Source of the DNA: Planctomycetaceae bacterium | Lineage (GTDB): Bacteria > Planctomycetota > Planctomycetia > Pirellulales > Pirellulaceae | Direction: 5' to 3' | DNA: 64,000 bases | Assembly: GCA_012729315.1 (NCBI GenBank) | Contig: JAAYDI010000166.1 | Location: forward strand, 1 to 64,000 | In this document: piece after piece, positions 43,876-48,767 of the stretch | How the letters are laid out: every line of letters starts with the position of its first letter | How positions within the stretch are numbered: position 1 is the stretch's first letter | Translations under genes and position numbers: made by a program | Notes under the pieces: model-generated | Databases searched by the model: none | Told to the model about the DNA's origin: nothing | What the model saw: only the letters and a program-made list of their open reading frames with translations

Positions 43876-44826
43876 CTACAGTTTCCACAGCAGCAGCAGG
43901 GTGTAGTCGAGTGCGTTGGCGTTCTGGCCGCTGTCACGCGTATCGTAGCGGTCGATTACACCCAATTTGAGGCTCATGTTGGTGCGTTCGTCGAGCAGTA
44001 CTTCCCAGCCCATATCGGAGCGGATGCGGTAGAGGGTGAAATCTTCCCATTCCGGGTAGTACTCGACCGTGGCGCGGAACTTCTGCCGGTCCGAGATCTT
44101 GTGCTCGAAATCGACGCCGAACATGGCTTCCGGGTCCCAGTCGTTGTCGGACCCGTGGAATTTCCGACTGGTACCGGAGCCGAAGCGTCCGATGAGTTTG
44201 GTGGCGTCGGTTTTGATGAAACGGTAGCCCATTCCGGCGTTGAGTGTCAGTTCCGACGAGTAAGGCCGGAATTCGTCGTATACGAAGATCGCTTTGGCGA
44301 AAGGGGTCCAGCGCGACTCGCCCAGGAGCCAGTCGTGGTGCACTTCGAGCTGGCCATTGTGTTTGGTCATGATGTAGTCGGCCGAGGCTTTGACGTAGTT
44401 GATCGCGACTTTCAGGTCGCTCCAGTCCTTGGTGCGCCGCAAGTTGGCCCCGGTGCGCATGGACAGGGTGGTGGAGTTGCCTTCGGAGCCATCGATGCCG
44501 ATCTCGAAGCTGTTGTCCCATTCATCGGGGATATCCCAGTACCAGGGCAGGAACCAGTTCTGCCACGTGAACTCCTTCATGATCAGGCCGCTGTCGATCT
44601 CTTGAGCGATCGCCTGATCGGCGGGAGCTGTCTGCGGGGCGTCAGCGGCAGTTTCCGGGGGCGGTTGGGGAGCAGCCGTGTCCTGAGTTACCTCTTCGAC
44701 CGGCGGCAGGGGGTACAGCACGGGGTACGGGGTGTCGAATGCCAACGATGGCCGCAGCAGGGAGGTCGGGGATATCAGGGATATAGCACTCAGCAAGACG
44801 AACGCGGGCAATCTCATGCGGGACAT
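43876..44826 (-). CDS. DUF481-like outer-membrane beta-barrel protein
   Basis: 316 residues from ATG 44826, which starts a signal peptide (MRLPAFVLLSAISLISPTSLL). A Pro/Ala-rich linker (residues 45-90) is followed by alternating beta strands: SFEIGIDGSEGNSTTLSMRTGANLRR, DYIMTKHNGQLEVHHDWLL, DFEHKISDRQKFRATVEYYPEW, and a final aromatic ...LLLLWKL, the pattern of DUF481 (YdiY-like) barrels. Salt-induced outer-membrane proteins belong to this family, function unknown. It is convergent with the gene-poor region. Confidence 0.7.
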   Translation of the reverse strand: MSRMRLPAFVLLSAISLISPTSLLRPSLAFDTPYPVLYPLPPVEEVTQDTAAPQPPPETAADAPQTAPADQAIAQEIDSGLIMKEFTWQNWFLPWYWDIPDEWDNSFEIGIDGSEGNSTTLSMRTGANLRRTKDWSDLKVAINYVKASADYIMTKHNGQLEVHHDWLLGESRWTPFAKAIFVYDEFRPYSSELTLNAGMGYRFIKTDATKLIGRFGSGTSRKFHGSDNDWDPEAMFGVDFEHKISDRQKFRATVEYYPEWEDFTLYRIRSDMGWEVLLDERTNMSLKLGVIDRYDTRDSGQNANALDYTLLLLWKL

Positions 44827-45013
44827 AGTCAGACGAGCCTCGGGGTCGATGAGGCGGGTCTTATAACAGGAGTGGCTGGTGGACCACAAGCCCGCTTGGG
44901 AGTGCGCGCCGACTCTGCGGCTGGCCGCTATCGAACCGCCAGGGTCGGCGGGGCCTGTTCAGCGGCCAGCGGCCGTTCGCCTCCGGCGCGGCGCGGATGC
45001 GCAGCAGTACCTG

Positions 45014-45580
45014 TCAGAGGTAGCCGGGCATTGCGCGCGGATAGGGGGGAACCTCGGCTGGCGGCGGTATCTCGCCGGTCTCAGCCGCCCAAGCTTCGCG
45101 CTCTTCCTGGGAGGCGTAGTATCGGAGCCACGTTTCCGGTTCAACGTCGGCATCGAGGCAGTGCCATTGCAGGACGTTTTTCGGCACGTCCACCTTCTTC
45201 TCGGCGGAGGGCAGGATGTCGCGGATCAGCAGGCAGTAGAGTTCGCGGTCTGACAGGTGGTCGGTGAATTCCAGCACGATCTGCTTGGCGTACAGCTGTT
45301 CGATTGTCTGCCACAGCAGGTCATGCAGTTGCTGGTCTTTGAGCGTATCGGGGTGTGGCAGTCGCAGTTCGGGTTCGAACCACTGGCTGATCGGCAGTAC
45401 CGGGGCGCGTTCCCAGGCCAGGATCGACGCCAGGTATTCGTTCTCGGACGGTGTACTGAGCACCCGCGAATTGATGATATCCAGGGACTCGTCGAGGAAC
45501 GGCTCCAGTTCGTCGCGCAGTCGGGCGTTGAGCATCAACTGATCGACGTCATCTGAGGCCGTGCGCGGGTCTTTCGACAT
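45014..45580 (-). CDS. Conserved-looking soluble protein of unknown function
   Basis: 188 residues from ATG 45580 (upstream in-frame sequence is Arg-rich and unlikely to be coding). Acidic, helical and soluble. The segment with DQQLHDLLWQTIEQLYAKQIVLEFTDHLSDRELYCLLIRDILP looks like a compact helical domain. No catalytic motif is evident. Standing alone upstream of DUF481 on the same strand; 190 bases separate them. No function claimed. Confidence 0.65.
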   Translation of the reverse strand: MSKDPRTASDDVDQLMLNARLRDELEPFLDESLDIINSRVLSTPSENEYLASILAWERAPVLPISQWFEPELRLPHPDTLKDQQLHDLLWQTIEQLYAKQIVLEFTDHLSDRELYCLLIRDILPSAEKKVDVPKNVLQWHCLDADVEPETWLRYYASQEEREAWAAETGEIPPPAEVPPYPRAMPGYL

Positions 45581-45769
45581 CTTTGCACACCTGTACTGGG
45601 CACGAGAATATCGACGACGATCGGGCCGGGCAGATCCGTGTCGTTCAAACCTCGACTGTACCAGCAATTGCTTGGCCCGCAATAGCTGAGCGGGCCAAAC
45701 CGGTGTGTTCTCCTGAAGATCCGCAAAGTGGTCCCGACACGACCGTTACGACCGCCAAACTGGAAATCG

Positions 45770-46216
45770 TCACGAGCCGTTACGTTCGATTTCGGCGATT
45801 TTTTCCAGCCGCCGTGCGTGCCGCCCGCCCTCGAATTTCGTGTCGATCCAGACCTCGATCAGGCGGTCGATATTCCGCTGGCCGAGCAGGTCGCCGGACA
45901 GGCACAGCACGTTGGCGTCGTTGTGTCGGCGGCAGATCTCCGCCGTCACGGCGTCGTTGCAGGTCGCCGCCCGCACGCCGTGGAACTTGTTGGCCGCGAT
46001 CGACATGCCGATGCCTGTACCGCAGATCAGGATTCCCCGTTCCGCCTCCCCCTGGGCCACTTTGCGCGCCACGGCGCTCGCGATGTCCGGATAGTCGATG
46101 CTCTCGCCGCTGTGCGTACCTTCGTCCGACACCTCATGTCCGAGCCGCGTGAGCAGTTCCGTCAGCCGATTCTTGACTTCCAGACCGCGATGGTCACTCC
46201 CCACCGATATCCGCAT
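45770..46216 (-). CDS. rpiB: Ribose-5-phosphate isomerase B (RpiB/LacA-LacB family)
   Basis: 148 residues. ISVGSDHRG, DYPDIASAVA, GILICGTGIGMSIAANK and ICRRHNDANVLCLSG match RpiB. It interconverts ribose-5-phosphate and ribulose-5-phosphate in the pentose phosphate route; allose isomerase activity is a known alternative. Its start is six bases after the TsaC-YwlE stop, with GGGAGGTTAA as ribosome site, so the two are an operon. The order sua5-arginine phosphatase-rpiB echoes the Bacillus ywlC-ywlE-ywlF region. Confidence 0.93.
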   Translation of the reverse strand: MRISVGSDHRGLEVKNRLTELLTRLGHEVSDEGTHSGESIDYPDIASAVARKVAQGEAERGILICGTGIGMSIAANKFHGVRAATCNDAVTAEICRRHNDANVLCLSGDLLGQRNIDRLIEVWIDTKFEGGRHARRLEKIAEIERNGS

Positions 46217-46222
46217 TGAGCA

Positions 46223-47377
46223 TTAACCTCCCGAACCACCCGTAGCCACGATCCGCTCCAGGTCGAGCTGAGCGAGCCACGGTTTCAAAAACTCGTCAAT
46301 TTGGCTGGCACACTGTCGATACGTGTCTGTCGTACCGCCCACCGGGTCGGCCACATCGCCTGCCGAGCCGCCCAGCAAGTGGGTGCGTGCTGCCGCACTG
46401 GACCACTCCGCCAGGATCGCCTCCCGGTGTCCTCGCGTCATTGTAAGGATTAGGTCGGCAAACCGCACTAGGCGGTCACTCAAAGGCTGACTTTCGTGCC
46501 GGCTCAGGTCCAGGCCGCACTCCGCCATGACCTCGATGGCTTCGGCGCTGGCACGCCCGCCACTCATGGCCGCGATCCCGGCTGACAGCACCAGCAGACC
46601 ACGGTCCTCCAGCTGCGCTTCCTCCACCCCCAACCGGCGCGCCAGATGCCGCTGCATCAACGCACCCGCCATCGGGCTCCGGCATGTGTTGCCTGTACAA
46701 ACGAACAGAAGCATGAAACTGGCCAGCCGCCTGAGGGTCGATTCGTTGAAGACGCCAGGACGCAGCAGTTGCCAGCAGTTGTCGCGAATCTGCACCACCG
46801 TCGAAGGCTGGCCGAACTTGCACTGGCCGTCATTGAGAATCAACTCCACCCGGTCCCGCAGCGATTCGATCGCCTCGTCCGCCGTCACCGCGGCCGGCTC
46901 CCCCGTCCGATTGGCACTGCTCAACGCCAACGGTCCGGCACACAGCCGGAGCACGGACAGCAGAATCGGGTGCGCGGGCACGCGCAGCCCGATCTGCCCG
47001 GCCGGACAGACCACCTTCTGCACCGCGACCGGCAGCTGCCTGACAACGCTCTCCGGATGGTCATCTTCCAGCACCAGAGTCAGCGGTCCGGGCCAGCAGC
47101 GGCGGGCCAGACGCTGGCCCAGCGTCGAGATCCGCGGCACGTAATCCCACGCATCCTCCGCGCTCTTGATTGCCAGCGTCATGGGGTGCCGAGCATCTCG
47201 CCCCTTCGCCTCCAGCAGCCGCTGGATCGCCCCCTCATGCAACGCGCTGGCCGCCACTCCGTACACCGTCTCGGTGGGAAACACGACCAGTTGACCATCC
47301 ACCAACGCCTCCACGGCGCGATGCACCACATCGCGCTGGTCCTCGACGTTCTTCAGGTCAATCACGGCAGCAGACAT
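46223..47377 (-). CDS. Fusion of threonylcarbamoyl-AMP synthase (TsaC/Sua5) with a YwlE-like arginine-phosphatase domain
   Basis: 384 residues from ATG 47377; farther upstream lies the promoter. Residues 1-210 are the TsaC/YrdC domain (PTETVYGVAAS near 34-44, KGRDARHPMTLAI, SSANRTGEPA), which makes threonylcarbamoyl-AMP for tRNA t6A. From residue 222 a low-molecular-weight phosphatase follows: MLLFVCTGNTCRSPMAG with Cys227 and Arg233, and the acid-loop ADPVGGTTDTY. Thr231 (CTGNT) replaces the Ile of tyrosine-specific enzymes and matches Bacillus YwlE, a protein-arginine phosphatase. So arginine dephosphorylation is the better guess. Followed at once by rpiB. Confidence 0.9.
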   Translation of the reverse strand: MSAAVIDLKNVEDQRDVVHRAVEALVDGQLVVFPTETVYGVAASALHEGAIQRLLEAKGRDARHPMTLAIKSAEDAWDYVPRISTLGQRLARRCWPGPLTLVLEDDHPESVVRQLPVAVQKVVCPAGQIGLRVPAHPILLSVLRLCAGPLALSSANRTGEPAAVTADEAIESLRDRVELILNDGQCKFGQPSTVVQIRDNCWQLLRPGVFNESTLRRLASFMLLFVCTGNTCRSPMAGALMQRHLARRLGVEEAQLEDRGLLVLSAGIAAMSGGRASAEAIEVMAECGLDLSRHESQPLSDRLVRFADLILTMTRGHREAILAEWSSAAARTHLLGGSAGDVADPVGGTTDTYRQCASQIDEFLKPWLAQLDLERIVATGGSGG

Positions 47378-47523: not shown

Positions 47524-47795
47524 CAGGCCACCCTCAAAACGTGGCGGATCCAAATGCCACGCTCGAGCGGAGCACCGGGCCGTGCTCCGTAGCTGCGCTT
47601 GCTGCGGCAGCCGGTCCGACATGCGCGTGATGGCAAGTGCTGTGTAGGACTGTTGCACGCTGCGGCTCGCCGGGCGGTTGGCTGTCTGTTTCCTGTCTGT
47701 TTCCTATCGTGCGGACTCCGTAGAATCAACCGGCGGTGACGATACGCATTTCCTGTCAGAGCCGGCCGCCGATCTGGTGCGGTCGGGTGCGAACC

Positions 47796-48767
47796 ATGTC
47801 TGCACTTCCCACGCCGCGCGACGTGCTGCCCACGCTTCGCAGGCCGATTATCTTGAGCCTGCTGATCAGTGGGTGTCTGGTCAGTGGGTGCATTTCCAAT
47901 GTTTCGGCGCCGGGGGAACCGGAGCAAGTCTGGGGCCGGCGCGGAATCTCGGCGGGGCGGCTGCAGAAGCCGCGCGCCATGGCCATCGATGCAGAGGATC
48001 GGCTGTATATTGTGGACATGACGGGGCGCATCCAGGTGTTTTCCACGGAGGGGGAGTATCTTCACGGTTGGCGCACGCCGGAGATCGAACTGGGCAAGCC
48101 GTGCGGGTTGGGTTTTGCCCAGGATGGGAATCTGCTGGTCGCCGACACGCATTATTTCCGCATGCTGGTCTACACGCCTGCGGGCGAGCTGCTGCCACAG
48201 CGCACGATTGGCGGTCAGGCGGGGAGCGGTCCCGGCCAGCTGAACTTCGTGACCGACGCCGTGCAGGACTCGCGCGGCTGTTATTACATTGCCGAATACG
48301 GCGACTGTGACCGGATCCAGAAGTTCGCGGCGGACGGCGCGTACCTGCTGCAGTGGGGCGGGCGCGGGCGGGAGCCCGGGCAGTTTGCGCGGCCGCAGGG
48401 CCTGGCGCTCGATGCGCACGATCGGGTCTGGGTGGCCGACGCCTGCAATCACCGGATCCAGGTGTTTGACGCGACGGGTGGAGAGGCCCGCCTGGAGGCG
48501 TTGTGGGGGAGCGAAGGGTCGGAGCCGGGCCAGCTGAGCTATCCGTACGGTCTGGCGTTGGACGGTCGCGGGCACGTGTACGTGTGCGAGTTCGGGAACC
48601 ATCGCGTGCAGAAGTTCACGCTCGACGGGCAATCGCTGGGCTGTTGGGGGATCGGTGGTCGTCAGAACGGCGCGTTGTCGAATCCCTGGGCGCTGGCGTT
48701 GGACTCACGGCAGCGCGTGTTCATCCTGGATACGTACAATCATCGTGTACAGCAGATCCGTCTCTGA
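47796..48767 (+). CDS. NHL-repeat lipoprotein
   Basis: 323 residues from ATG 47796. A lipoprotein signal ends LISGCLVSGC (Cys27 or Cys32). Five to six NHL repeats form a beta-propeller: LQKPRAMAIDAEDRLYIVD, FARPQGLALDAHDRVWVAD, LSYPYGLALDGRGHVYVCEF, and a final LSNPWALALDSRQRVFILD. Such propellers bind proteins, carbohydrates or RNA. It is 14 bases upstream of the large VWA-protein gene, so both may form a surface complex. Confidence 0.85.
   Translation: MSALPTPRDVLPTLRRPIILSLLISGCLVSGCISNVSAPGEPEQVWGRRGISAGRLQKPRAMAIDAEDRLYIVDMTGRIQVFSTEGEYLHGWRTPEIELGKPCGLGFAQDGNLLVADTHYFRMLVYTPAGELLPQRTIGGQAGSGPGQLNFVTDAVQDSRGCYYIAEYGDCDRIQKFAADGAYLLQWGGRGREPGQFARPQGLALDAHDRVWVADACNHRIQVFDATGGEARLEALWGSEGSEPGQLSYPYGLALDGRGHVYVCEFGNHRVQKFTLDGQSLGCWGIGGRQNGALSNPWALALDSRQRVFILDTYNHRVQQIRL

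Follow-up and report, generated by a model that had tools for sequence, protein, structure and literature searches.

The first step in the synthesis of the tRNA modification t6A is carried out by TsaC, which makes threonylcarbamoyl-AMP (TC-AMP) from threonine, bicarbonate and ATP. Its YrdC domain recurs within multi-domain proteins such as TsaN, HypF and TobZ, for which the partial accounts consulted list Kae1/TsaD-like, SUA5, TcdA, acylphosphatase and zinc-finger domains as partners, with no low-molecular-weight (LMW) phosphatase among them. For LMW phosphatases, the rule by which Thr or Ile at position PX5 sets specificity is reportedly owed to Fuhrmann et al. in 2013. According to excerpts of PMC8001253, Thr at PX5 steers YwlE and the PtpB of S. 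aureus to phosphoarginine, and Ile steers to phosphotyrosine. The kinase McsB is given, in part of PMC8370763, a key role in the protein quality control of Gram-positive bacteria, where arginine phosphorylation has been characterised as a degradation tag. Excerpts of PMC11708050 and PMC5177608 already note McsB and McsA in the Gram-negative Chlamydia, so the kinase outside Gram-positive bacteria is not new as such. In B. subtilis, part of PMC7546277 reports that TsaD is phosphorylated at Arg282, that McsB, YwlE and ClpCP set its stability, and that disruption of ywlE lowers expression from the ylxS promoter via TsaD.

The window, that is, the whole stretch of 64,000 nucleotides of planctomycete DNA analysed here, contains one intact gene in which TsaC, a TC-AMP synthase by sequence, is fused to an LMW phosphatase (Table 1). 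Read from the upstream TTG to the stop, the frame comprises 424 codons and has no frameshift. Pfam profiles PF01300 (157.4 bits, cut-off 25.1) and PF01451 (91.1 bits, cut-off 23.2) match in this shared frame, about 15 residues apart, and TIGR00057, L-threonylcarbamoyladenylate synthase, scores 150.2 bits, above its curated cut-off of 123.2. This agrees with an earlier note on the sequence, which had described one frame with a YrdC/TsaC domain and an LMW phosphatase domain. A Pfam profile search of the protein did not match the SUA5 domain (PF03481), and the protein is therefore of the TsaC form and not a Sua5. The KxR and SxN motifs, which we take to be catalytic in the TsaC domain, are retained. 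An AlphaFold2 model built on an alignment of 40 relatives has two confident domains (pLDDT 96.5, pTM 0.91); with VIA-align, the top structural matches of the N-terminal half are Sua5/TsaC2, at Z 26–28. The protein thus resembles TsaC/Sua5 (TsaC2) in profile score, motifs and structure, but differs from Sua5 in that the phosphatase domain occupies the place of the SUA5 domain.

Table 1. Features of the fused locus and its surroundings in the window
Feature	Position	Strand	Basis or remark
Fused tsaC-ywlE-like gene	46223..47377	-	384 aa from ATG at 47377; open back to TTG 47497
TsaC/YrdC domain (PF01300)	46754..47308	-	Profile match; KxR and SxN motifs retained
LMW phosphatase domain (PF01451), YwlE type	46274..46708	-	Profile, sequence, fold and tree
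P-loop CTGNTCRS, PX5 = Thr	46676..46699	-	Window sequence
General-acid Asp-Pro (in DPVGG)	46343..46348	-	Window sequence; DP invariant in the 40-row alignment
rpiB (ribose-5-phosphate isomerase B)	45770..46216	-	NF004051, 186 bits (cut-off 135)
DUF481 protein	43876..44889	-	Operon neighbour
Protein without Pfam match	45014..45682	-	Near the operon
NHL-repeat protein	47736..48767	+	Near the operon

The gene order of Bacillus had been read into this locus. What stands is the position of rpiB, which begins 6 nt downstream of the fused gene; the order as a whole is similar to that of Bacillota but not identical, since in the two Bacillota loci compared (L216 and L218) sua5 is of the long form that includes a SUA5 domain, and L218 has sua5 and the phosphatase gene separated by an mntP-like gene. 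The T. tengcongensis LMW-PTP (PDB 4egs, where the molecule is named ribose 5-phosphate isomerase RpiB) and a Negativicutes locus (L215) share this neighbourhood. In L215, a phosphatase with Thr at PX5 (T-type) is joined in one frame to its neighbour, as in the window; these two cases differ from ours in that the partner is RpiB and not TsaC.

Compared with PDB sequences, the C-terminal domain has YwlE entries as its best six matches: wild-type B. subtilis YwlE scores 88.8–89.6 bits and Geobacillus YwlE 78.6, followed by the T. tengcongensis LMW-PTP (73.0), Wzb entries (42–58) and M. tuberculosis PtpA (30). The top LMW-PTP found by Foldseek is likewise YwlE (4etn, E 2e-16). In VIA-align, the T. 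tengcongensis LMW-PTP (Z 25.1) and YwlE (25.0) are tied and Wzb is near, about 1 lower (23.7–23.8), so the fold by itself does not decide specificity. This near-identity of LMW-PTP folds would also suit a tyrosine phosphatase with a Wzb/LMW-PTP role in which the Thr of the loop is incidental, and Wzb-type NCBIfam models do match the window protein, weakly (54 bits against a cut-off of 243). We consider such a role improbable, given the sequence matches to YwlE and the residues and tree described below.

The active site CTGNTCRS with its Thr, as noted earlier, is read directly in the window, and the domain has no Wzb/tyrosine-type signature: it has Thr at PX5 and DPVGG instead of Ile/Leu and DP[YFW]Y. 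For comparison we assembled 82 fused planctomycete domains (the window and 81 fusions among 100 stretches hand-picked from the LMWPc matches listed) and 49 free-standing planctomycete LMWPc domains (the 30 best-scoring matches, 17 hand-picked from the remaining list and two long frames without TsaC). The catalytic Cys, Arg and Asp-Pro are retained in all 82 fused domains, and PX5 is Thr in 66, Ser in 10, Leu in three, Ile in two and Arg in one; the Thr is thus largely kept in planctomycete relatives. The five Leu and Ile cases are what a tyrosine phosphatase would lead one to expect. Among the free-standing domains, Ile, Leu or Met occupies PX5 in 39 of 49. The tyrosine-type DP[YFW]Y occurs in none of the 82 fused domains and in 28 of these 39 free-standing rows, while the YwlE-like DPxGG occurs in 47 of the 82 and in none of the 39. 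Thr or Ser at PX5 is found in 76/82 fused versus 9/49 free-standing domains (Fisher p 1e-18, a value that takes no account of relatedness or of how the rows were chosen). Four of those nine free-standing rows are ArsC-like by eye, and some planctomycetes have a free-standing T-type phosphatase (L132, L135).

A tree of 96 LMWPc domains was computed with the PX5 column removed; it covered half (41) of the 82 fused planctomycete domains, and all other groups in part. The branch splitting TsaC-linked and YwlE domains from tyrosine-type enzymes has a support of 100/99. On its YwlE side lie 83 rows, four of them free-standing domains with Ile, Leu or Met, and the order of lineages there is poorly resolved. 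The planctomycete fused clade reaches 96 in a quick tree but is weak in the careful one (66/0 with 49 rows, 76/75 with 50 rows; bootstrap unsettled). Sequence, fold, PX5 Thr and tree together support a YwlE-type C-terminal domain, as the earlier note had it, and the grouping with tyrosine-type enzymes by which the note would have been refuted is not seen, even without the PX5 column. With YwlE of B. subtilis and PtpB of S. aureus, the domain shares the LMW-PTP fold, CTGNTCRS, DPxGG and the presence of McsB in the genome, and with YwlE also tree kinship and a sua5/ywlE/rpiB-type neighbourhood. It is unlike both in sitting behind a short TsaC and in belonging to a planctomycete, and it is known here from sequence. 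By analogy with these enzymes, the fused phosphatase is predicted to be specific for phosphoarginine.

The kinase partner had been placed outside the window, and a search of the source genome (5.47 Mb, 96.65% complete, 3.09% contamination) located it. The only guanidino-kinase match lies on contig C114 (C114:57495-58094(-)) and scores 477.7 bits with NF002194, protein arginine kinase, above the curated cut-off of 385. This McsB aligns over residues 31–370 of 380 with full-length McsB structures, at 292–296 bits (296 for this alignment), compared with at most 180 for other guanidino kinases. The motifs NEEDH, CPTNVGTG and GEGS, read in its own row, are retained, and we take them to be functional in McsB. 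Directly upstream lies an McsA-like gene, matched by NF053706 over its length (115 bits, E 3e-33, short of the cut-off of 210). A ClpC with two Clp_N repeats is encoded by an 855-codon frame on contig C208, and its N-domain finds ClpC-type entries as best matches (170–172 bits). A single ctsR-mcsA-mcsB-clpC operon was not found in the source genome: mcsA and mcsB lie on C114, where the neighbours were read by eye, and clpC on C208. The fused domain is the sole LMWPc match in the genome, and the YrdC proteins found are the fused protein and, by Pfam, HypF, with no further one.

By sequence, the source genome therefore holds the writer McsB, a likely activator (McsA-like), the protease chaperone ClpC and one LMW-type eraser, and protein-arginine tagging, known chiefly from work on Gram-positive bacteria, is probably functional in this planctomycete as well. 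In the control search, PF00217 matched none of 14 control genomes, B. subtilis included, and Clp_N missed B. subtilis as well. Since nine of 10 Bacillota were matched for McsB in a separate check (below), we take the misses to reflect a gap in the B. subtilis copy rather than low sensitivity. They are what one would expect if that copy lacked the ctsR-mcsA-mcsB-clpC stretch.

Among 246 sampled planctomycete genomes, McsB was found in 233 and LMWPc in 223. At least 150 carry the full-length TsaC-LMWP fusion, which is therefore not a chance event; one row (G073) is cut on the N-terminal side. McsB is present in 145 of the 150 genomes listed with a full-length fusion, the five without a detected McsB (G053, G102, G162, G189 and G219) being 73–90% complete. 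Contamination is not the cause of this combination, since genomes of one contig, such as G024, G105, G152 and G167, hold both genes. We had considered co-occurrence as proof of a kinase/phosphatase pair and rejected it within this phylum: McsB is present in 145 genomes and missing in five with the fusion, versus 88 and eight without it (Fisher p 0.14), and proves nothing because McsB is nearly everywhere. The PX5 residue did not track McsB in the planctomycete sample either. The six fused domains with Leu, Ile or Arg (G008, G169, G124, G075, G001 and G052) all come from McsB-positive genomes, so residue and kinase do not go together, even though one planctomycete with Ile at PX5 and no McsB found (L159) would on its own fit such tracking. 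Of the fused planctomycete loci, 76 extend far enough to show the next gene, and in 49 of them rpiB comes right after the fusion, versus one of 44 free-standing loci. Six genomes of one family (f44: G070, G088, G106, G168, G195 and G217) are 99–100% complete and have McsB with no LMWPc match; these planctomycetes either have no eraser or use another phosphatase.

Outside the phylum, contigs from many genomes were scanned for relatives of the fusion. Within the best 80 of 591 confirmed relatives, TsaC-LMWP fusions occur in an Aerophobetes MAG, three Omnitrophota, one Gemmatimonadetes MAG and an unassigned bacterium. In addition, a Eubacterium MAG encodes TsaC, SUA5 and LMWP domains in one frame with a broken P-loop, CRENVTIS (L222:2992-4386). 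McsB was checked in 23 genomes hand-chosen from these best 80, leaving the Eubacterium MAG aside. It was found in all six non-planctomycete genomes with the fusion, in nine of 10 Bacillota with sua5 near a T-type phosphatase gene, in two of three planctomycetes (the exception being L159) and in none of four Proteobacteria/Actinomycetota whose tsaC locus, as fetched, had no phosphatase gene.

In a sample of 200 Gemmatimonadota (G249 and G269–G467), 195 have McsB. Here a T-type phosphatase gene often stands beside tsaC, unfused. In 20 of 22 full-length matches, a single stop codon separates the halves, which are thus adjacent genes sharing a frame, and in other genomes (for example G274, G304, G336, G348 and G382) the halves are adjacent separate matches. 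The separate phosphatase domains have Thr at PX5 in 19 of 20 cases and Val in one. Three Gemmatimonadota fusions (L174, L262 and L267) form a 100/100 clade nested within the Gemmatimonadota clade (99/95), and, as this clade contains separate pairs, fusion of the neighbouring genes took place on two or more occasions. The Omnitrophota fusions form their own clade (95/92) and may represent a further independent fusion.

Taken together, these data make it fairly probable that the window encodes a bifunctional protein, a TC-AMP synthase and a YwlE-type protein-arginine phosphatase that reverses McsB, tied to the t6A machinery. Its N-terminal half is predicted to supply TC-AMP for tRNA t6A. In its C-terminal half, the P-loop Cys would attack the phosphate of phosphoarginine, with the Asp of DP as general acid, and the Thr at PX5 would favour phosphoarginine over phosphotyrosine. 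By undoing McsB phosphorylation, the phosphatase would keep proteins from being degraded by the ClpC protease. The fusion itself may have fixed an older neighbour pair of tsaC and a ywlE-like gene, and could tie the amount of the phosphatase, perhaps also its place, to the t6A machinery.

The phosphatase might instead act on the TsaC reaction and not on proteins, as a replacement of SUA5 that handles one of its products (nucleotide or pyrophosphate) or the delivery of TC-AMP. It does sit where SUA5 would be in a long Sua5, a short distance past YrdC in a protein without PF03481. Nevertheless, we hold this to be very unlikely: the LMW-PTP catalytic residues are retained in every fused row, SUA5 and LMWPc coexist in the Eubacterium frame, though with its P-loop broken, and part of PMC10321239 describes single-domain TsaC in other bacteria.

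Whether an arginine phosphatase fused to TsaC has anything to do with t6A is a separate matter, and here the chances are about even that the fusion is mere co-expression of old operon neighbours. Such neighbours are seen in Bacillota (tsaC/sua5 with the phosphatase gene) and Gemmatimonadota loci, the phosphatase has other partners, namely RpiB (L215) and DUF4202 (L098, L115), and T-type enzymes stand free in some planctomycetes. As the only LMWPc match in the source genome, it would also have to serve all phosphoarginine proteins, which, like the varied partners, counts against a dedicated t6A role. On the other side, this pair became fused at least twice and is met in fused form across the phylum, and part of PMC7546277 makes B. 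subtilis TsaD a target of McsB, YwlE and ClpCP. From the architecture and this B. subtilis precedent, a coupling of the phosphatase to t6A synthesis, as the earlier note had hinted, is plausible.

We compared TsaD in 22 usable loci of 26, with the Mesobacillus protein, its start codon guessed, standing in for that of B. subtilis. Counted from this guessed start, the Arg of GGVAANxxLR falls at position 282 (in two further Bacillaceae, by the same guess, at 273 and 279), and it probably corresponds to Arg282 of B. subtilis TsaD. We rejected this Arg as a marker of McsB control. It is present in 21 of the 22 rows regardless of McsB, the source genome and three Proteobacteria without McsB among them, and missing in one Gemmatimonadota row (G249) although McsB is present there; it therefore cannot discriminate.

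A wider reading is more tentative, and we regard it as possible but rather doubtful: that Planctomycetota, Gemmatimonadota and several candidate phyla use McsB/ClpC phosphoarginine degradation outside Gram-positive bacteria, with the eraser inside or beside the t6A machinery and both jointly controlled. If so, translation-fidelity status (TC-AMP supply and TsaD) and degradation tagging would be regulated together. Apart from this, the counts above for Planctomycetota (233/246) and Gemmatimonadota (195/200) add two large phyla in which almost every sampled genome has McsB. There, the recurring fusion identifies the likely eraser and, with the TsaD link of B. subtilis, points to t6A synthesis as a partner process. 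Culturable planctomycetes would allow the phosphoarginine proteome and the fusion to be tested directly.

In the literature searched, with most subscription journals outside it, we found no recognisable description of the TsaC-LMWP fusion or of McsB in planctomycetes. PMC4395418, in which McsB and Planctomycetes appear together, has McsB in its reference list only. Two surveys of TsaC/Sua5 (PMC10321239 and PMC9654439) have no word starting with "phosphatase" in their main text. Automatic annotation surely already names many such proteins by their parts.

Other arrangements of the phosphatase were met in planctomycetes. In two McsB-positive genomes of family f12 (G097 and G174), an LMW phosphatase with CTGNTCRS lies in frame with DUF4202 (L098:135-1241 and L115:2389-3492; 202.7 and 206.6 bits), which is possibly a clue to DUF4202. 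In a further genome (G018), TsaC, LMW phosphatase and aldehyde dehydrogenase share one open frame of 995 codons (L103:1562-4546).
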